Shown: piece by piece, positions 739 through 55,239 of the stretch
How the letters are laid out: every line of letters starts with the position of its first letter
Numbering within the stretch: position 1 is the first letter of the stretch
Assembly: GCA_001465025.1 (NCBI GenBank)
Contig: LNDO01000087.1
Coordinates: 1 to 55,239, forward strand
DNA length: 55,239 bases
Origin: Pseudomonas sp. Ga0074129
GTDB taxonomy: Bacteria; Pseudomonadota; Gammaproteobacteria; Pseudomonadales; Pseudomonadaceae
Direction of reading: 5' to 3'
Position numbers and translations under genes: made by a program
Notes under the pieces: model-generated
What the model was told of the DNA's origin: nothing
Databases searched by the model: none
What the model saw: the letters and a program-made list of their open reading frames with translations, nothing else

Positions 739-1923
739 TCAGGCGAATTGCGCCGCCGCATAGCCCGAGGCCCAGGCCCACTGGAAGTTGAAACCGCCCA
801 GGTGGCCCGTCACATCCAGCACTTCACCGACAAAATACAGCCCCGGCGATTTCAGCGACTCCATGGTTTTTGACGACACCTCGCGGGTGTCCACACCGCC
901 CAGGGTCACTTCCGCCGTGCGGTAGCCTTCTGTGCCCGCTGGCACCAGTTGCCAATCACCGAGCTGCTCGGCAATCGCCTTGAGCTCGGCATGGGTGTAC
1001 TGCTTCATCGGTTTGGAGACAAACCAGTTATCGGCCAGCAGGCCAGCCATCTTCTTGGTGAACAACTCGGCCAGCAGGGTTTTCAGCTCGCTGTTGGGCC
1101 GCTCGCGCTGCTGCTCGGCCAGCCATTCGGGCAGGTCGATGTGCGGCAGCAGGTTGATGCTGATGGCATCGCCCGGTTGCCAGAAGGAAGAAATTTGCAA
1201 AATCGCCGGTCCGCTCAGTCCACGGTGGGTGAACAGAATGTTTTCCTTGAAGCTCTGCCCATTGCAGCTCACCACGCAGTCTTCCACCGAGGTGCCGGAC
1301 AACTCCGTGCACAGCGCCTTGAGCGCCGGGTCGGTGAGGGTGAACGGCACCAGACCGGCGCGGGTTGGCAGCAGTTCATGGCCGAACTGCTTGGCCACTT
1401 GATAGCCAAAACCTGTAGCGCCCAGTGTCGGGATGGACAGGCCGCCAGTGGCGATCACCAGCGATTCACAGCGCACCGTGCCTGCACTGGTCTGCAATTG
1501 ATAGCCGTTGGCGCTTTTGCTGATCTCGCTCACCGACGTATTCAGGCGTAACTCAACGCCAGCCTCGGCGCACTCGTTGAGCAGCATGTCGAGGATGTCG
1601 CTGGCCTTGTGATCGCAGAACAACTGGCCGAGTTTCTTCTCGTGGTACGGCACGCCGTGTTTGGTCACCAAGCCGATAAAATCCCACTGGCTGTAGCGCG
1701 CCAGCGCCGATTTGCAGAAATGCGGGTTTTCCGAGAGAAAGTTGCTCGGTTCGCAATACATATTGGTGAAATTGCAGCGCCCGCCGCCCGACATAAGGAT
1801 TTTCTTGCCAGCTTTGTTGGCGTGATCCAGCAGCAGCACCTGACGCCCGCGCCCAGCAGCCGTCAGCGCGCACATAAGCCCGGCCGCACCGGCACCAATA
1901 ATCACGACATGGGGCGTCAACAC
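739..1923 (-). CDS. HI0933/YhiN-family NAD(P)/FAD-dependent oxidoreductase
   Basis: The 394-aa product starts with a Rossmann dinucleotide motif (VVIIGAGAAGLMCA) at residues 6-19. It also has the family signature GKKILMSGGGRCNFTN near residue 40 and ends in GGFNFQWAWASGYAAA, which closes the FAD site in HI0933-like proteins. These features define the BaiN/YhiN flavoprotein family, whose in vivo substrate is not settled. Length is normal for the family and the frame is intact. It is divergent from the solute-binding protein gene at 2051, with about 127 bases between them, and convergent with the partial gene at the window start. No redox partner is adjacent, so only the family and cofactor can be assigned. 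Confidence 0.88.
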   Translation of the reverse strand: MLTPHVVIIGAGAAGLMCALTAAGRGRQVLLLDHANKAGKKILMSGGGRCNFTNMYCEPSNFLSENPHFCKSALARYSQWDFIGLVTKHGVPYHEKKLGQLFCDHKASDILDMLLNECAEAGVELRLNTSVSEISKSANGYQLQTSAGTVRCESLVIATGGLSIPTLGATGFGYQVAKQFGHELLPTRAGLVPFTLTDPALKALCTELSGTSVEDCVVSCNGQSFKENILFTHRGLSGPAILQISSFWQPGDAISINLLPHIDLPEWLAEQQRERPNSELKTLLAELFTKKMAGLLADNWFVSKPMKQYTHAELKAIAEQLGDWQLVPAGTEGYRTAEVTLGGVDTREVSSKTMESLKSPGLYFVGEVLDVTGHLGGFNFQWAWASGYAAAQFA

Positions 1924-2050
1924 AGTTCAATCCTCAACACGGCTGCGCCAGCGGTGGCGCGAAGTGCGCGCATCTTAACTGATGGGTATACGGCTGTGGT
2001 TCGTCCGCTGATCGTCTAGGCTTACGGCTTGGGTTTTTGGACACTCAACG

Positions 2051-2788
2051 ATGAATAGGCTGCGTTTCTTGCTGCTGCTCTGGGTGCTGCTACATCCCTT
2101 GAGTAGCCCCGCCGAGCAGGCCCTGCGTCTGGTGGCTGACCCGTGGCCGCCGTTCACCGATAAAAGCCTGCTCAACAACGGCGTGGCCTCCGATCTGGTG
2201 GTCAATGCACTGGCGCGCGCGGGTTACACCACTGTTTATGCTCAGGTGCCATGGGAGCGGGCCGTGCGGGGTTTGCAGCAAGGCACCTACGATGTGCTGA
2301 TCAACGCCTGGTACAAAGAGGACCGCAAGGAATTTGGCTATTACTCGCAGTCCTATCTGATTAACCGCGTGCGTTTCTTGCAGCGCAAGGGCAGTGGCAT
2401 TGCGTTCCGGCAGTTGCCTGACTTGTACCCTTACAGCATCGCTGTGGTGCGCGGCTATGCCTACGCTGATGCGTTTGATCAGGACGCGCGCCTGAGTAAG
2501 GTTGGTGTGGTGAGTTTTGAAGGCGCTGCGCGCATGTTGGCGGCGCAGCGTGTGCAGCTAACCTTGGAGGACGAACTGGTCGCGCGCCATCACCTGAGCC
2601 GCAGCCTGGCCGGAGTGCGCGACCAGTTGGAGTTTCTCCCGCAGCCGCTCAGTGAGAATGGGCTGCACATTTTGATCAGCCTGCGCCATCCCCGGCACAA
2701 GCAGATCGCTGACGACTTCAATCGAGAGATTGCCGCCATGCGTGCCGATGGCAGCTATGAACAGATATTGCGGCACCACGGCCTTTGA
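2051..2788 (+). CDS. Periplasmic solute-binding protein, family 3 type
   Basis: The 245-aa protein has a clear Sec signal peptide: MNR, a leucine-rich core around residues 5-15, and probable cleavage after SSPAEQA. The mature part opens with LRLVADPWPPFTD, the typical first strand of family-3 solute-binding proteins, followed by GVASDLVVNALARAGY and YDVLINAWYKEDRKEFGYYS. In amino-acid ABC importers this protein captures ligand in the periplasm, but no transport genes are adjacent. Orphan members in Pseudomonas also act as sensor inputs. Its stop lies immediately before the end of the convergent diguanylate cyclase gene. Ligand unknown. Confidence 0.8.
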   Translation: MNRLRFLLLLWVLLHPLSSPAEQALRLVADPWPPFTDKSLLNNGVASDLVVNALARAGYTTVYAQVPWERAVRGLQQGTYDVLINAWYKEDRKEFGYYSQSYLINRVRFLQRKGSGIAFRQLPDLYPYSIAVVRGYAYADAFDQDARLSKVGVVSFEGAARMLAAQRVQLTLEDELVARHHLSRSLAGVRDQLEFLPQPLSENGLHILISLRHPRHKQIADDFNREIAAMRADGSYEQILRHHGL

Positions 2789-4033
2789 CTACTGCCAGTA
2801 GTTGCGCCCACGGCCTTGGGTTTTGGCCTGATACAAGCGCTTATCCGCCAGGTGCAGAAGGTTTTCCAGGTCATCTGGGGTGCCGTAATAGATGCCCGCA
2901 CTGAAAGACAGCGGCGTTGCACCGGTGGCGTAACGAATGCTGGCGCATTGCGTGCGCAACTGGTCGAGCGCCGCATTCAGGGTGTGGGCGTCCTGCTGGC
3001 TGACCATGGCAAATTCTTCGCCGCCCAAACGTCCCAGTAAGGCGTCCGGGAAAGCAGCGGCCAGAGCGCGGGCAAACCCCACCAGCGCGGCATCACCGCT
3101 GGCATGGCCGTGTTCGTCGTTAATCCGCTTGAAGAAATCCAGGTCGAGCATGGCCACGCTCAACTCGTGACCGCCGGAACGTGCTTTTACAAACAACTGC
3201 TGGCCGTGTTCATAAAATGCGCGGCGGTTGTTCAGGCCAGTCAGGGCGTCGTATTGCGCGGCTTTTTTCAGCGCGCGCATTAAATCGCGGCGCTCCAGAG
3301 TGGACATCACCCGGCAGTTAAGCTCTTCCGGGTAGAAGGGCTTGCGCAGGAAGTCATCGGCGCCGTGTTTGATGAACTTGGCGCTGAGCGAGCCTTTGGT
3401 GTCGGCAGACAAGCCCAGGATGATCAACTCATGGCGTTTCATTTTTTGCCGTAACAGCTTGACCAGATCGAAACCCGATAGGCCGGGCATGCTGTGGTCG
3501 ACCACCAGTAAGTCAATGTCGTGCTGCTCTTGCAGCAGGCGCAGGGCGTCGTCCCCGTCGCAGGCTTCGAGAATCTGGTAGCGGTGGGGCGTCAGTACGT
3601 GGCGGATGTAATTGCGCGTGGCTTCCGAATCATCGGCAATCAGGATTTTTACCGCGCTATTACTTTCCAATCGGTGTAACAGACGGAAGGCGTATTCGTA
3701 AGAGTGCTGACTTTCTTTGAGAACGTAGTCCACCACGCCTTTGAGCAGCATCTGATCACGGCGTTGCTCGTCGTAGGTGCCGCTGAGCACGATGCAGGGC
3801 AGGTAATAGCTCATCACCAGATCGACGATCTCACCGTCGGGGGCATCGGGCAGGTTGAGGTCGACAAAGGCGGCAAAGAACAGCGAGGCCGAGGTTTCCA
3901 GCATCACCTGCGCCTCAGCATAGGAGGCGCAGAAGACGGGCTGAAAGCCGCTTTCCTTGCGAAACAGATGGTCGAGAATTTTCAGCACCAGTGGGCTGTC
4001 TTCGATCACCAGGATATTGCGCAAGTGAAACAC
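2789..4033 (-). CDS. Response regulator with two receiver domains and a diguanylate cyclase (GGDEF) domain
   Basis: The 414-aa cytoplasmic protein has REC1 at about residues 5-125 (acidic pair in ILVIEDS, phospho-acceptor in FVDLNLPD). REC2 is at about 135-255 (ILIADDSEA, VVDHSMPG, conserved Lys in LRKPF). A GGDEF domain spans about 270-414, with active-site GGEEF near residue 340 and the AMLDLDFFKRIND metal-binding strand. It should make c-di-GMP from two GTP when phosphorylated. The RxxD inhibitory site normally found just upstream of GG(D/E)EF is not recognisable here (PDALLGRL), suggesting weak or absent product inhibition. No histidine kinase is adjacent. The product feeds the same second-messenger pool as the HD-GYP protein at 45932-47185. 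Confidence 0.88.
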   Translation of the reverse strand: MFHLRNILVIEDSPLVLKILDHLFRKESGFQPVFCASYAEAQVMLETSASLFFAAFVDLNLPDAPDGEIVDLVMSYYLPCIVLSGTYDEQRRDQMLLKGVVDYVLKESQHSYEYAFRLLHRLESNSAVKILIADDSEATRNYIRHVLTPHRYQILEACDGDDALRLLQEQHDIDLLVVDHSMPGLSGFDLVKLLRQKMKRHELIILGLSADTKGSLSAKFIKHGADDFLRKPFYPEELNCRVMSTLERRDLMRALKKAAQYDALTGLNNRRAFYEHGQQLFVKARSGGHELSVAMLDLDFFKRINDEHGHASGDAALVGFARALAAAFPDALLGRLGGEEFAMVSQQDAHTLNAALDQLRTQCASIRYATGATPLSFSAGIYYGTPDDLENLLHLADKRLYQAKTQGRGRNYWQ

Positions 4034-4090
4034 TCCTCTACCGCTTGCCGCGCAGTCGCAACGGCTGATGTTATTGAGCAGGTTGTGGGT

Positions 4091-49573: not shown

Positions 49574-49837
49574 TTACTGCGGCAGGCAGACACCGGTGCC
49601 GCCCAGACCGCAGTAACCGCCGGGGTTTTTCGCCAGGTATTGCTGGTGATACGCCTCGGCGTAATAAAACGGCGGGGCCGGGCGTATTTCCGTGGTGATC
49701 GGGCCGAAGCCGGCCTGCTCCAGTGCGGCCTGGAACTGTGCCTGACTGGCCTGTGCGGCGGTCAGTTGCGCATCGCCGTAGCAGTAGATTGCCGAGCGGT
49801 ATTGGGTGCCGATGTCGTTGCCCTGGCGCATGCCCTG
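49574..49837 (-). pseudogene. msrA: 3' fragment of msrA (peptide methionine sulfoxide reductase A)
   Basis: Minus-strand codons from 49837 read [11 protein letters not shown], the conserved central-to-C-terminal part of MsrA. They continue to [12 protein letters not shown] and the end [14 protein letters not shown] with the resolving cysteines. The codon just upstream of Gln is TAA and the homology stops there. The N-terminal half with the catalytic Cys (GCFWG) is absent. An open frame of 85 codons from Met 49831 remains but cannot encode an active enzyme. The gene was cut by the element that starts at 49838. Confidence 0.92.
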
Positions 49838-50107
49838 TTAGTATGACTTGGCCTGGCAGCTATCTATGTAAACTGATATCACCGCCAGCCTAGCTTCTAC
49901 GAATGGTCTGAGAAGGCCCTTTCTCGAAATATGCAGCCCAGCAACCATGAGTGTTGCAGATTAGCTATTTCGCGATACCGAGGGGTATTCGGCGTTTCCG
50001 CAAAGTTCCGAAGTTTTGTTTCTTAAAAAATTGAGTAACTGGATTTAGTCGCTCCGGGCTTATCTTTGTTTTGTACTGACTTTGCGACAGGTCACAGAGG
50101 AGAGTAC
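49838..50107. other. Non-coding left end of the element
   Basis: 270 bases without a plausible gene. They hold a nested inverted repeat at 49925-49972: outer arms CGAAATA and TATTTCG, inner arms GCAAC (49941-49945) and GTTGC (49953-49957). A small hairpin follows at 49975-49988 (ATACC and GGTAT). These may be recombinase binding sites or part of the trio's promoter region. No clear -35/-10 was found. Confidence 0.45.
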
Positions 50108-51229
50108 ATGGTTCTGGTTGTCAATGTTGACTTTCGCAGTAGTCACGATTCGAGGCTCTCACAGCTCTCACATAAAATTCCGCAATTTTTCAATAATTCA
50201 GCTGAACCATATAGCGAGGCAAATGCCTACATGCGGTTTTTGTCCCGCCGATTAATGCCGAAAAGTATGAAAACTATCGCGGAACATATTAAAGAGTTTT
50301 TGGTTTGGTCGGAAAACTCCGGGATTGAACTTATAGATATTACGGATGATGTCTTTGATAGCTACGTAGATGCGCTCTGTGGTTATCGAAAGGCATCTGG
50401 AGTGCCGCTTAGCTGGAATACTGTAAATGCAAGAGCTACAGGTGTTTATCGCTATCTTGTATGGTGTTATGAGAAAAGGCTATGCCCCGATTTGAATCCA
50501 GTTGAGGTCGCTAGCTCATACGGCGGGTTGCGGAAAAAATATAACACCAAAGGACATCACTCAAGAAAAATAAACGATCATACAAAATTTCTTATCTTGG
50601 AAACTGCCGTTAAGTTCATTGATACCCTTTCCGAGGTTTCGGGGTTCGCAAATTCAGAAGTAAGGCTAAGGAATAAGTTGATTGGAGCGTTTATGCTTCA
50701 GTCGGGCCTTAGGATATCTGAAGTAGTAGGATTTCCTTTAAAAGATCTGCCCGAGGTTAATCTAAGAGGGCACTCGACCCCAGCGAGGCTTATCGGCAAG
50801 GGTGAGAAAGCAAGACTGGTTTTGATACCCAATAAGCTGCTTGTTAAATTTTGGCAGTACGTAGATTTTGACAGGCAAAGAGTTGTAGAAAAAATAGAAT
50901 CAATCGCTGGAAATGATGTTGTGGATGATGTGCTCTTCTTAAGTGAAAAAGGTCGAAGGTTGACAGCGAACTGGATAGAAAAGTTGTTTACCAGGGCAAG
51001 TGAGAGGCTTGGGGTTAAGACCGTACCTCATGTGTTAAGGCATACATACGGTACTTACCATTACCTTTTGAATAAAGATCTGGCGGGGCTGGCCAATTTA
51101 ATGGGGCACTCCAATGAGAACACGACTCGGAATTTCTATGTCCATACGGCTTTACTGATTTCCTACGCTGGGACATATAGAGCTCTACAGGATGAGATTG
51201 ATAGATTGATAGGGGCTGCTAATGGATGA
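50108..51229 (+). CDS. Tyrosine recombinase 1 of trio (catalytically complete)
   Basis: The 373-aa protein starts at ATG 50108 after AGAGGAGAG; the frame is open 14 codons upstream without a better site. An N-terminal SAM-like core-binding domain (about residues 30-165) precedes the catalytic domain. Catalytic residues visible: R202 in SGLRISE, Lys in IGKGEKARL, H308-V-L-R311-H312, H334 in MGHSNE and nucleophile Y344 in NFYVH. All are canonical, so strand cleavage and joining are expected. It overlaps the next gene by eight bases (ATGGATGA). The size resembles TnpA of Tn554. Confidence 0.88.
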   Translation: MVLVVNVDFRSSHDSRLSQLSHKIPQFFNNSAEPYSEANAYMRFLSRRLMPKSMKTIAEHIKEFLVWSENSGIELIDITDDVFDSYVDALCGYRKASGVPLSWNTVNARATGVYRYLVWCYEKRLCPDLNPVEVASSYGGLRKKYNTKGHHSRKINDHTKFLILETAVKFIDTLSEVSGFANSEVRLRNKLIGAFMLQSGLRISEVVGFPLKDLPEVNLRGHSTPARLIGKGEKARLVLIPNKLLVKFWQYVDFDRQRVVEKIESIAGNDVVDDVLFLSEKGRRLTANWIEKLFTRASERLGVKTVPHVLRHTYGTYHYLLNKDLAGLANLMGHSNENTTRNFYVHTALLISYAGTYRALQDEIDRLIGAANG

Positions 51230-53282
51230 AAACAGGTCTAGCTCTCTTCATTTCCTTACTGTAGCTGAGGAGCGTGCTGAAACAGAGCTTAAATTCACTG
51301 CAGAATGTAAGAACACGGCGAAAATATATGCATATGACTTAAGTGGCAAGCCATACTCTGATTCGTTTCGGGATGTGCTCGGAGTAGTGGTTTGGGCTAT
51401 TTACCGGCGAAGAAATATGATGGGGCATTTAAGTCGGTTGGCGATCATCGAGATACTTCCAAGGTTCTTTAAATTTCTTGAAAATGTTCTGATATATAGG
51501 GCAGAGCAACTGTCAGGGGATACGCTGCGTTACTTTGCGGAATGGCTAAAAAAGGATAAGAGTTTAAGCTATTCAACTGCGGCCTCTATGTATCGAAAAA
51601 TTTCACCCGTATTTTTGCAAATGAGTAACCATTATAAGGTTAGCGATAGTTTTGTTCCCGTTCGTAATGCCTTTCCCAAGTCAAGCTCGCTTGTCTCGTC
51701 CTGTGTTGGATATGATCAGAAAGAGTTGAAAAGTATTCTCAATACGGCTGTGCGCGGGATGCGTGAAAGTGCGTCTAGGTTTGAGAAGGCGTATCAGCCT
51801 AGATGGATAGGAATAGCTCCGCCATTAGAAGATGTGGCTCCTATTGGTCCGGGTGGCAATAGGTCATATTGGGCCAGTGAAGAATATAGAATCTGGTGGT
51901 GGGAGAATAATTGTGGATGTATGAGGCTTAATAGTAATGCACTGTACAAGCTGCCAAAAGGGCAGACTTTTTTTCAGTCTACGGCACTAGACGGTAAAAA
52001 AGGTACTGTTGAGTATTTAAACGAATTTTATGACCGCATAGGTGCTGGCCCTGATTATCAACCAAAGTATTTGGGGTTGCCTTGTCCTATCAATTACCGT
52101 ACGCCATGGAAAAAGAAAGATTATCTTGTCTGGTACTGGGAAAACAAATTAGGTTGCAGAGCTCTATCTGGCGGTGAATTGAAGAAGATTGCGCCAGAGT
52201 TCTGGGGTGCCTTGAAAGAATATTTTGGGGGAAGGATAAAGGATTTTTACAAGGAGTTGGGTGTATATCGCTGGGTTCAAGCAGAGGATTTGATTCCATA
52301 TTATTTGTTGCTCTTGATTAGAACGCAGCTGAATCCATCTACTATTCAGCGCCTGACATTAGACTGCCTAGTTCCTGACCCGTTGGATGATGGTCGTGTC
52401 ATGATTGACTGGAAAAAGTATCGGTCTTTTAAGAAAGGAATGACCATTCCTGCTGATAAAGGCAGCGATGGCTGGCCTGCGATGATAATTAAACGGGTGA
52501 TTGCTATTACTGAGTCTATTAGGGAAGACGGCCAAGAGGAGTTGTGGGTTGCAAACGCCAATCGTTTCAAAATTAGCCAGCCTCTAGGTGGCTCTGCATT
52601 TAAAAGGGCTCTTCAAGCGTTTTCAAAAAAACATGCATTAACAAGCTCTGATGGTAAGCCTTTATCTATTCAGGCGCGACTGATTCGTCCAGCAATGGCT
52701 TGGAGTGAATACTTAAGAACTGAAGATATGAACTATCTTCAGGCGTTATTAGGGCATGCTAGGCTTTCAACAACTGCTGATTATTTGAGGCGGTTAGATG
52801 ATCCTATCTTTCTGACTCGACGGGCAGTTCATCAGGATGCAGTTTTTGTTCGGCTTTCTTCTGCTGAAGATGGCTCTTTAATTAGCGAATCTCTGGAAGT
52901 AAGTGAGAGTGCTCAAGGAATGCACGAGGCTCTTTTAAATCACTGCAAGAATCCGTTGAAGTCTCCTGTTTCTGGTCAAAAAACTGGGTCCTTCTGTAGT
53001 GCTAGTAGTGAGGTGTGTTTGGGGTGTCAGAATTTAATCATAACCTTTGTTGATATAAAGAAATATTTCTGCTTTATTGGCTTTTATGATTATCTTTTGC
53101 AAGTTGGTGATGTGACTGATTTGGAGCACAGGAAGGCTGTTTCTGAGAAGCGCTTCATTTGGGAGAATTATATACTTGTAAAGTATGACTCAGGCGTTGT
53201 TGAGAGAATAAGGTCTGAGGCTTTGGCTTCTCCAATTCCGGAGTGGGATATTTCCCTGTATGAGGAGAGAAAGCATGGGTGA
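51222..53282 (+). CDS. Large tyrosine recombinase-like protein 2 of trio, degenerate active site
   Basis: The 686-aa protein has an N-terminal SAM-like domain to about residue 200. Two copies of a Trp-rich module follow, starting at residues 214 and 293 and sharing the pattern W...(D/E)Y-x-(I/V)-W-(W/Y)-W-E-N-x-x-G-C. The recombinase domain comes next. Box I reads RTQLNPSTIQR: the catalytic Arg position is N371. In box II the first His is R486 and the second is P490, but R489, H512 (LLGHARLSTT) and Tyr521 (ADYLRR) are kept. The C-terminus has a cysteine cluster (C592, C599, C602). Strand cleavage alone seems doubtful; a structural or target-site role with its partners is likely. AT-rich codon use. 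Confidence 0.78.
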   Translation: MDENRSSSLHFLTVAEERAETELKFTAECKNTAKIYAYDLSGKPYSDSFRDVLGVVVWAIYRRRNMMGHLSRLAIIEILPRFFKFLENVLIYRAEQLSGDTLRYFAEWLKKDKSLSYSTAASMYRKISPVFLQMSNHYKVSDSFVPVRNAFPKSSSLVSSCVGYDQKELKSILNTAVRGMRESASRFEKAYQPRWIGIAPPLEDVAPIGPGGNRSYWASEEYRIWWWENNCGCMRLNSNALYKLPKGQTFFQSTALDGKKGTVEYLNEFYDRIGAGPDYQPKYLGLPCPINYRTPWKKKDYLVWYWENKLGCRALSGGELKKIAPEFWGALKEYFGGRIKDFYKELGVYRWVQAEDLIPYYLLLLIRTQLNPSTIQRLTLDCLVPDPLDDGRVMIDWKKYRSFKKGMTIPADKGSDGWPAMIIKRVIAITESIREDGQEELWVANANRFKISQPLGGSAFKRALQAFSKKHALTSSDGKPLSIQARLIRPAMAWSEYLRTEDMNYLQALLGHARLSTTADYLRRLDDPIFLTRRAVHQDAVFVRLSSAEDGSLISESLEVSESAQGMHEALLNHCKNPLKSPVSGQKTGSFCSASSEVCLGCQNLIITFVDIKKYFCFIGFYDYLLQVGDVTDLEHRKAVSEKRFIWENYILVKYDSGVVERIRSEALASPIPEWDISLYEERKHG

Positions 53283-55155
53283 TCGTTTTGGCTCTCCTCT
53301 GTATTTATTAGCGAGAGACATTGTTCAGGAGTTGAATCATGAACTAGATTTTTATCCTAACCTCAAGGGTGTGTCGGAGTCGGCTAGAGCAAAAATTAAG
53401 ATATCGGCGTTATCTTTCTATAGGGATAATGTCTGGGATTTTTCTACTGAGTATCCAAGTTTACGTTCAAGGGACGTTGTTCTTAAATTTAGCCAAATTC
53501 ATTTTGGGGATGGCAGTGACATAACCATGTCGGGTTATGAAAATTATTTGAATTCGGTTAAGGAGTATTGCTATTCGTTATTGGTCGATCCTCCGTCGAC
53601 ATACCCTAAATGGTCGACTATTTGTGTTGCCATGAACAAGGGGGTTAGGACTCTTTTAAGGTTCATGAGAGAGTCTGGCATCGTTAGGTTTTCTGATGTT
53701 TTCGATATTGATTTTCAAGGTTTTCAAGACTGGGTGGCGGAGTCTGAGAATAAATATGGGGAGTTGATTACCAATAGAACACTTAACTCAAGGATCTATG
53801 GCCTTTCGTGGCTCTACGAACAGTCTGGAAAGCTTACTGATGGGTTAGTTGCTTGGCCTTTTGGAGATAGTCGCAGTGAGACTGAGTGGGCGAAGGATCG
53901 CGCACAAAAGAAACTGCCTAGAAAATATCAAACTACCCCTGAGATGCCGGACTCGGTAGCGAAGAAGTTAATTTTATGTGCGATTGATGATTTGTCTATT
54001 GCTGAAAAGCTGCAGGATTTAAGGGAGAAGCGTAAGGAATATAAGTCTAGGAAATCTGTTTCAAGGAAATTACTGCCATCTGGTGAGTATAGGTATTCTG
54101 TTGAGGTTCTGAATCCATTTCCATGGCATAGATATGGGGTTTCCTCGGCTAATCAAGTAAGAACGTTGGAGTCAAGGCTTCTTATAGCTGGTTATATTTT
54201 GATATCGATGTTTTCAGGTATGCGATTTCATGAGGTGGCTCATATTAAGTTTGGTCGTATTAATAATTGGAGTGTCCGGCAGGTAAGCGTTGACGGTGGC
54301 GTTAGGGATTTTTATTTTTTGGTGTCAAAGACCAATAAGTTGCAGCATGATGCTACCCGCTATCTCTGGCAAACGATTCCCTTTGTTGAGCGTGTTTTAG
54401 ACGCGCTTGAGCAGGGTTTGGCTCATCGTTATACGCGAGGTAATTCTTTTCTTTTTTCAGGCTATGTAAATAATGGCGAAAGAATTGCGCTTTCTACTAT
54501 AAATTGTGCCTTAAAAAAATATGCCGAATTTCATCATGTAGAGTTTAATGGTGAAGTGTGGTCAGTTGCGACACATCAGTTTAGAAAGAAGTTCTCACGA
54601 CTTATGATTAGGAGTGGTCTTGGTTTGGTTGCGCTTCAAGATCAATTGAAGCACTTTGATATTGAGATGACGAAGAATTATGGTGACTTAAATCTCTACT
54701 CTGAATTGCAGCAGGAGAAATTTACCCTGTCTAGAGAGAAGTACGACGAAATTATGCTGACTCAGGTCCCTATTATTGGTGGTGGTGCTGATGAGGTTGA
54801 GGGGTATAGGAAGGCTTTTATGGGTATGCCTGCCGATGATAGAGAGCAGCTCTTGGATAATCTATCCAAGAAAGCGCTTATTGAGCAAATGGATGATGGC
54901 TTGTGTATGTTTAGAGCCAAGAAGGCGCTTTGTGGGGGAGATAGTGCAAACTGTCGACCGGCAGATTGTAATAACTCTATTATTCCTGCTGAAGGTATGA
55001 GGCGAACCTTGACCTGGCGTAAGAGCGAGAATCAAAGAATGAGAGACTTCTTTTCTGGTCAGCCATTAAAGGTGGCCCATTTAGATGACAGGATCTCTGA
55101 AATTGATAAATTGCTCAGTCAAATGGATGGCTTAAATTGTGACCTGAATTCATAG
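53275..55155 (+). CDS. Large tyrosine recombinase 3 of trio (catalytically complete)
   Basis: The 626-aa protein starts at ATG 53275, after GAGGAGA and with an eight-base overlap (ATGGGTGA) with the preceding gene. A GTG-type start five codons upstream is less likely. The long N-terminal DNA-binding region (about 1-290) contains a core-binding-like part (YPKWSTICVAMNKGVRTLLRF). Catalytic residues: R317 in SGMRFHE, Lys in VSKTNK, H434-Q-F-R437-K438, H460 in LKHFD and Tyr469 in KNYGD. A C-terminal cysteine cluster (C544, C553, C560, C565) could bind zinc. The size resembles TnpB of Tn554. It is the last gene visible in the unit. Confidence 0.85.
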   Translation: MGDRFGSPLYLLARDIVQELNHELDFYPNLKGVSESARAKIKISALSFYRDNVWDFSTEYPSLRSRDVVLKFSQIHFGDGSDITMSGYENYLNSVKEYCYSLLVDPPSTYPKWSTICVAMNKGVRTLLRFMRESGIVRFSDVFDIDFQGFQDWVAESENKYGELITNRTLNSRIYGLSWLYEQSGKLTDGLVAWPFGDSRSETEWAKDRAQKKLPRKYQTTPEMPDSVAKKLILCAIDDLSIAEKLQDLREKRKEYKSRKSVSRKLLPSGEYRYSVEVLNPFPWHRYGVSSANQVRTLESRLLIAGYILISMFSGMRFHEVAHIKFGRINNWSVRQVSVDGGVRDFYFLVSKTNKLQHDATRYLWQTIPFVERVLDALEQGLAHRYTRGNSFLFSGYVNNGERIALSTINCALKKYAEFHHVEFNGEVWSVATHQFRKKFSRLMIRSGLGLVALQDQLKHFDIEMTKNYGDLNLYSELQQEKFTLSREKYDEIMLTQVPIIGGGADEVEGYRKAFMGMPADDREQLLDNLSKKALIEQMDDGLCMFRAKKALCGGDSANCRPADCNNSIIPAEGMRRTLTWRKSENQRMRDFFSGQPLKVAHLDDRISEIDKLLSQMDGLNCDLNS

Positions 55156-55239
55156 AATAAGTGCAACGCTTGAAACGATAGGCAGAGGGCCAGCCACCGG
55201 TAGAATCCAGGCTCTCACACCAAAGGATTCAAGCGCAGA
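55156..55239. other. Sequence after the trio, up to the window end
   Basis: 84 bases. CGCTTGAA at 55167-55174 and TTCAAGCG at 55228-55235 form an 8-bp inverted repeat 53 bases apart. The sequence is GC-richer than the trio, so it may be the edge of another element or of cargo. Nothing firm. Confidence 0.3.

Follow-up and report, generated by a model that had tools for sequence, protein, structure and literature searches.

The three recombinase-like genes at positions 49838–55155 of a 55,239-bp stretch of DNA from Pseudomonas sp. Ga0074129 (the window, which is the whole of contig C87 in a 4.0-Mb draft genome of 124 contigs) are best explained, with fair confidence, as the left end of an SE-like integrative element that breaks the methionine sulfoxide reductase gene msrA. 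SEs are strand-biased circularizing integrative elements; their core, as given in PMC10214605, PMC9345347 and PMC11064530, is intA-tfp-intB-srap, in which two R-H-R-Y tyrosine recombinases surround a degenerate one. Judged by sequence, the element is probably no member of a new trio family; it would belong to a diverged SE-like clade that hits a new target and brings along a replacement for the gene it breaks. We keep the label SE-like, with the GInts, which are set apart by description only, as a live rival. The anatomy of the element, both of its ends, its target, its differing 6-bp flanks and its replacement gene can all be read from the DNA. Distinct in this clade are a long Tfp branch, the msrA target and an element-borne msrA.

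The trio itself is real. G+C content drops from 0.586 on the left to 0.425 at 49838, in the middle of msrA, where a lower-G+C block starts. Open reading frame (ORF) coordinates and the PF01625 remnant agree in placing three overlapping recombinase-like genes directly behind the msrA breakpoint, as the preliminary description had stated. Searching the genome with PF01625 gave four matches: the remnant in the window (profile 78–152), the missing 5′ half at C76:84016–84255 (profile 1–80), and two complete genes, one at C76:84428–84889 and one on contig C43. At the first of the C76 sites (locus L023), the 5′ half of msrA joins TTAGGAGGACAGTC, which repeats the left terminus TTAGTATGACTTGG imperfectly in inverted orientation, with eight of the first 10 bp matching. 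The same left boundary delimits two elements in msrA, those of the window genome and of Stutzerimonas stutzeri 24a13, and one in another site, on the P. aeruginosa plasmid pF061_1; its motif C is similar in clade members L006 and L045 and less similar in L046. Published SEs are described with imperfect inverted repeats C and C′ of 13–19 bp and a 6-bp spacer, and a 6-bp spacer between the ends fits our three elements. The copy on pF061_1 is contiguous and 92.5% identical to the window stretch over 5,310 aligned bases, and its alignment begins at most 3 bp from the msrA break; the arrangement in the window is therefore not due to chance. No sigma-70 promoter consensus was found at the left end of the element.

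The 6 bp at attR are unlike those at attL in all three elements. Read on the msrA strand, attL and attR are CAGGGC and CAGGGA in the window genome, CAGGGA and CACGGG in 24a13, and CAGAAG and CAGGGC on pF061_1; the donor-type core is known for two. In the published SE footprint model, the left-flank 6 bp of the donor end up at attR of the new copy. As this predicts, the attR 6 bp of two elements equal the left-flank 6 bp of another copy: the footprint of the window genome is the 24a13-type core, and that of pF061_1 is the msrA core common among pseudomonads. On pF061_1 the attR and attL 6 bp are unlike at three positions, more than a single mutation can explain. The flanks of 24a13 together with its attL 6 bp match the uninterrupted msrA of genome G423 at 126 of 126 bases, with CACGGG and not CAGGGA at attR, so that attL is the local core and attR is foreign; this is the only element whose foreign footprint is seen against an exact empty site. 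For the window genome, the flanks agree with the best of five relatives compared at 96 of 126 bases, and the predicted 36-base core occurs exactly in 9 of 35 same-genus matches. The site pattern matched 44 of 57 relatives of the window genome, and the core in the 35 same-genus matches was CAGGGC in 33, CAAGGC in two and CAGGGA in none. Within the genus of 24a13, 50 of 56 genomes matched, with CAGGGA in five, CACGGC in one and CACGGG in none. The target on pF061_1 would be CAGAAG, as judged from attL. Together, the footprints suggest a Stutzerimonas-type msrA origin, a Pseudomonas-type msrA origin and a hop to a plasmid.

IntA and IntB match the Phage_integrase family (PF00589) in Pfam at 2.1e-18 and 3.1e-11, respectively. 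By our own assignment of the catalytic boxes, IntA keeps Arg216, His322/Arg325, His348 and Tyr358, and IntB keeps Arg322, His439/Arg442, His465 and Tyr474. Tfp had no Pfam match at E ≤ 0.1, and against NCBIfam it gave only short C-terminal box II matches (best 6.2e-4). It carries Asn371 at Arg I and has lost the box II His, but it retains Arg489 (box II), His512 (box III) and Tyr521. Asn occupies Arg I in all 16 middle proteins of a hand-chosen alignment. No PDB sequence matched the Tfp profile at E ≤ 0.1 or the IntB profile at E ≤ 0.001. The ORFs overlap by 8 bases (IntA/Tfp) and by 23 or 8 bases, depending on the start (Tfp/IntB).

The fourth gene, srap, lies on contig C123. On pF061_1, intB passes directly into srap with no insertion sequence (IS), whereas in the window genome the intB/srap overlap is interrupted by an IS that has GTGA on either side; intA-tfp-intB-srap is likewise contiguous in 24a13 and on plasmid pKF715A. 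The IS belongs to the IS30 family and is annotated as ISPpu17 in plasmids. Its tail forms the final 97 bases of the window, an end present in 22 strong copies across the genome, the window's included, and by comparison with pF061_1 it supplies the C-terminal few residues of IntB. The srap gene starts at C123:95, right behind the other IS end, and its protein is 99% identical to Srap of pF061_1. Soon after srap, L033 (C123) encodes, at 873–4063, an AAA ATPase, a serine resolvase and a protein that resembles a transposase and matches rve below threshold; these genes are probably a transposon inserted in the element. The IS30 copy between intB and srap and this further transposon may have stranded the element in the window genome.

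Table 1 Features at the msrA break and the left end of the element (window coordinates).
Feature	Position	Strand	Remarks
Split host msrA, 3′ part	49574..49837	-	Remnant ORF 49574–49831; PF01625 positions 82–152
6 bp adjoining motif C in attL	49832..49837		Taken as central 6 bp of the local msrA target (CAGGGC, msrA strand)
Left terminus, motif C, TTAGTATGACTTGG	49838..49851	+	Left boundary common to three elements
IntA, tyrosine recombinase	50066..51229	+	387 aa from TTG, 373 aa from ATG at 50108; R-H-R-Y present
Tfp, tyrosine-recombinase-fold protein	51222..53282	+	686 aa; Asn371 replaces Arg I, box II His lost
IntB, large tyrosine recombinase	53260..55155	+	631 aa, or 626 aa from ATG at 53275; R-H-R-Y present; last codons from IS30
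GTGA, 4-bp duplication flanking IS30 at the intB/srap overlap	55139..55142		Second copy at C123:95–98
End of ISPpu17-like IS30 element	55143..55239		Contig ends inside the element

We placed the proteins with SE-type profiles, each made from four quartets: those of pAQU1, Vibrio sp. THAF190c and Raoultella, plus Pseudoalteromonas for Tfp or Photobacterium toruni for the others. Among these sources only the pAQU1 element has been tested experimentally, the quartet near blaGMA-1 being taken, from that position, to be SE-Pda04Ya311. The profiles reached the window IntB directly (hhalign, 99.5% probability over 525 columns) and IntA in its catalytic part (95%). Pseudomonas quartets with a middle protein of about 560 aa match both the SE-type and the window sides. 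We then ran an iterated search with the SE-type Tfps and the ~560-aa group against 702 + 410 ORFs from the loci under study, and the window Tfp was found at 8.2e-18 in the second profile round. Every one of the 50 entries at E ≤ 1e-3 in that round was a middle gene, with some loci entered more than once; an IntB fragment followed at 0.005, and reversed decoys matched in no round. In a quick tree of 46 Tfps, for which the program warned of long branches, the window clade comprises seven rows (two of them repeats or near-identical) with an SH-aLRT of 100 on a branch of 2.07 changes per column. DUF6262, which we take to be the TnpC family of Tn554, gave matches below the cut-off in three related fourth proteins (0.00025 in L050, 0.0011 in L038, and 0.047), and window-type Srap had none at E ≤ 1. 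The L038 and L050 matches fit the reported likeness of SE-type Srap to TnpC of Tn554. PMC11064530 treats the P. aeruginosa element SE-PaeJB0032, which has 22.6–28.5% identity to SE-6945, as a putative SE on the strength of its gene order, R-H-R-Y residues, footprint and restored target. By that standard the window element also qualifies.

The close relatives of the window element are pseudomonads. Scanning genome contigs with IntA gave two loci from 14 candidate stretches: 24a13 (97%) and a 77-residue fragment (71%). The 24a13 quartet is uninterrupted and occupies the same msrA position; a second contig of that genome holds the other end, which is laid out alike and again has an extra msrA. 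Plasmid matches to Tfp at E ≤ 1e-5 numbered 89 records, with at least 80% coverage in two, pF061_1 (92.6%) and pKF715A (52.3%). Gene order, overlaps and sizes in the window match the annotated quartets on both plasmids, and the pAQU1 quartet near blaGMA-1 matches more loosely. The pF061_1 element (27,744 bp, 765–28508) is bounded by the same ends, also includes the extra msrA, bears phn/ptxD genes and occupies a site that is not msrA. SEs are described as lacking mobilization genes; no relaxase appears inside the pF061_1 element in the listed annotation, a gene table that is incomplete, the cargo in the window genome being partly seen. A second, distant quartet of the same type lies at 172910–177932 of pF061_1 (L050), with proteins of 385, 535, ~580–613 and 138–151 aa by start. 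Tfp was found at E ≤ 1e-20 in 3 of 398 same-genus genomes, the window genome included, and megablast found no near copy in E. coli genomes. Two clade members lie outside msrA, L006 and L045 (G278), the latter beside or in a comM-like gene (Mg_chelatase, 2e-95) on the left flank of its quartet, so that the clade has more targets than msrA.

The complete element-borne msrA on C76 starts 160 bp in from the right end and shares the strand of the host gene. Its 181-aa product is 38–41% identical to three intact MsrAs (the C43 copy of its own genome and those of G007 and G423). At the place equivalent to the target it reads DPTTLNRQGAD, where G007 and G423 share a conserved 11-residue stretch, and its DNA lacks the CAGGGC core there in all three element copies. 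The element msrA should not itself be a target at this place, and it could restore MsrA function. The C43 msrA, the target site of which has also diverged, is present in the genome as well, so loss of MsrA through the insertion cannot be assumed. No sigma-70 promoter consensus was found before the element-borne gene, and its transcription would come from the host msrA promoter. Next on C76 are an AAA ATPase and a subtilase that match defence models for IetA (1.5e-104) and IetS (E = 0), an IetAS anti-phage defence pair at L023:7386–10836 near the right end. The right end of 24a13 is 97.8% identical and has ORFs of the same lengths. C76 ends 5.5 kb inside the element. Cargo had been suggested to the right of the trio, and it is there, the IetAS pair on C76 being part of it.

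We propose a mechanism in which the strand bias, the copy-out route, the expression and function of the replacement msrA and the role of Tfp are what we infer. IntA and IntB would be the catalytic tyrosine recombinases, with Srap as a small accessory protein and Tfp as a recombinase-fold partner without the first catalytic Arg that probably binds the element ends or bridges them. If the element behaves like tested SEs, IntA and IntB would cleave a single strand at each end and connect the left end to the right; the resulting circular copy would carry the left-flank 6 bp, and the donor would stay occupied. The circle would then enter a 6-bp core (CAGGGC and variants) in the conserved 11-residue stretch of msrA, the local 6 bp becoming attL and the donor 6 bp attR. 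Insertion cuts msrA, and the element msrA inside the right end may take over.

Several points weigh against assigning the element to the SEs. The inverted repeat is short, at 8 of 10 bp against the 13–19 bp of published SEs. On its own, the profile of SE-type Tfps fails to find the window Tfp, a shallow profile–profile comparison gave 2.5% probability, and later rounds of the iterated search absorb IntB and IntA, a drift to catalytic recombinases that is the reason for taking the second round. Srap reached 4.4% probability profile to profile and E = 0.015 after iteration, the latter with the 24a13 copy. Plasmids of Alpha- and Betaproteobacteria give matches to the ~560-aa linking Tfps and, weakly, to the window Tfp itself, whereas the published survey, with 37 SEs with mapped ends, reports no SEs in those classes. 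The window-genome footprint is one base off its target, and a point mutation could explain that case alone. No donor of CACGGG was found, the 50 matching genomes in the genus of 24a13 included. No empty site was found for the pF061_1 insertion, the right-flank query matching pF061_1 itself only and the left flank being fully covered only there. The continuity of C87, C123 and C76 is drawn from sequence and not from an assembly, and the strand bias and the circle are carried over from the SE analogy.

It is unlikely, although a serious possibility, that the element is instead a GInt. GInts have four essential genes, a recombinase-like member without the first Arg (GinC), a small fourth protein and 6-nt staggered cuts; they are reported from Betaproteobacteria and by their discoverers also from Alphaproteobacteria, in keeping with the plasmid matches of the linking ~560-aa Tfps. 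However, the degenerate member is the second gene in loci with identified neighbours, as in SEs, whereas the name ginABCD, and the name alone, suggests the third in GInts. GInt excision also gave mixed joints, whereas here the attL and attR 6 bp differ in three of three elements and attL is local for 24a13.

The preliminary description proposed a distinct recombinase-trio family. An undescribed family of this sort could account for the long, fully supported Tfp branch (with the long-branch warnings of a quick tree), for a Srap link to SEs no better than E = 0.015 and for an msrA target and replacement gene that are absent from the literature searched. We nevertheless consider it very unlikely and did not retain it: gene order, catalytic pattern and the type of 6-bp footprint match the SEs of PMC10214605, PMC9345347 and PMC11064530, and the fourth gene, srap, was found on C123. 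Full-length IntB homology, Asn at Arg I and the Tfp link likewise speak against a new family.

A Tn554-like transposon, with TnpA, TnpB and TnpC as the counterparts of IntA, IntB and Srap, is highly improbable; in its favour are protein sizes that resemble those of Tn554, the weak DUF6262 matches in three related fourth proteins and the reported left-flank 6-bp transfer. Tn554 is described without a counterpart of Tfp, and window-type Srap does not match DUF6262 at E ≤ 1; the earlier view that this is no plain Tn554 therefore stands, by description. Least credible of all, along with Tn554, is the reading of the split msrA as a faulty assembly or as a phage-like integrase island of the ordinary kind, flanked by identical core repeats: the two ends do lie on different contigs of a draft genome, but the same junctions recur in a second genome and, at another site, on a complete plasmid, and we rejected phage-like integration because attL and attR carry different 6 bp in each of the three elements.

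The SE class, its footprint and one replaced target gene (bcp in SE-6283) have been published already. In main texts and search listings, supplements aside, we did not find in print the msrA target, the right-end replacement gene or a footprint chain across two genera and a plasmid. The word msrA does not occur in the main texts of PMC10214605 and PMC5385486, the supplements, which hold most mapped SE targets, being outside the search; nor was it seen in the search listings for PMC9345347 and PMC11064530, and no comparable msrA element came up in the literature searches. SEs were defined recently, and this clade adds both ends, a chromosomal target and three copies with footprints that hint at their origin, so that past jumps can be read from sequence and strand-biased movement can be tested in Pseudomonadaceae. 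The replacement msrA, together with bcp and perhaps thyA, suggests a way in which elements of this type could get away with targeting conserved genes. We regard it as an even question whether the SE superfamily repeatedly breaks and replaces, inserting in a conserved stretch of a housekeeping gene and carrying a diverged, target-free copy, with bcp, msrA and thyA as three independent cases; if so, the target would be available in many genera and the host would be tied to keeping the element. Related quartets with a middle protein of 782–1410 aa are followed at once by a complete thyA in L090 (G056), L093 (G073), L092, L097 and L066. L090 and L093 have a 3′-truncated thyA on the other side (profile 1–184 and 1–179 of 266), so that in these elements as well the target gene seems to be both broken and replaced; by eye, L092 and L097 look alike, and L066, on a plasmid, has no truncated thyA among its listed ORFs. 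The left flanks of three ~560-aa-Tfp elements (L136, L138 and L139) hold, by eye, the start of a umuC-like ORF.

Among known systems, RIT elements have three recombinase genes in a row, as in the window, but were rejected on protein sizes: archetype RIT proteins are 315–410 aa, all with the catalytic Tyr, against 686 and 626 or 631 aa for the second and third proteins here, and the catalytic pattern differs too. Gamma-mobile trios also have three recombinase genes in a row, and models exist for GmtX and GmtZ. We rejected this family because IntA scored 19.9 bits against the GmtY cut-off of 340, with no other Gmt-named family at E ≤ 0.1 in NCBIfam. The preliminary description had found no clear match to either group by eye, and this holds. 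A GmtY over its curated cut-off (494.7 bits, G000:C48:34574–35845) is encoded elsewhere in the window genome, where a separate gamma-mobile-trio island may be present. Tn554, by description, likewise transfers the 6 bp of the left flank and has a large recombinase beside an ordinary one, as well as a small accessory protein, but lacks Tfp. GInts (ginABCD), also by description, share a four-gene unit, one degenerate recombinase-like protein and 6-nt cuts and differ in order as far as the name tells. SE-PaeJB0032 of P. aeruginosa, by its description in PMC11064530, shares the traits for which it is called a putative SE, but has a PA2049-equivalent gene as its target. SE-6283, SE-6945 and SE-Pda04Ya311 of Vibrio and Photobacterium have the same order and overlaps as the window element, a degenerate recombinase between an R-H-R-Y pair, a 6-bp attR footprint and a small set of selected targets. 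They differ in that the window Tfp and Srap are too diverged for direct detection with these profiles, in IntA (373–387 aa in the window against 545 aa on pAQU1) and in the target, which is msrA here, with the replacement gene at the far right end, whereas the bcp of SE-6283 follows srap, as judged by locus tag. Like the window element with msrA, SE-6283 carries a homologue of the gene that it breaks.

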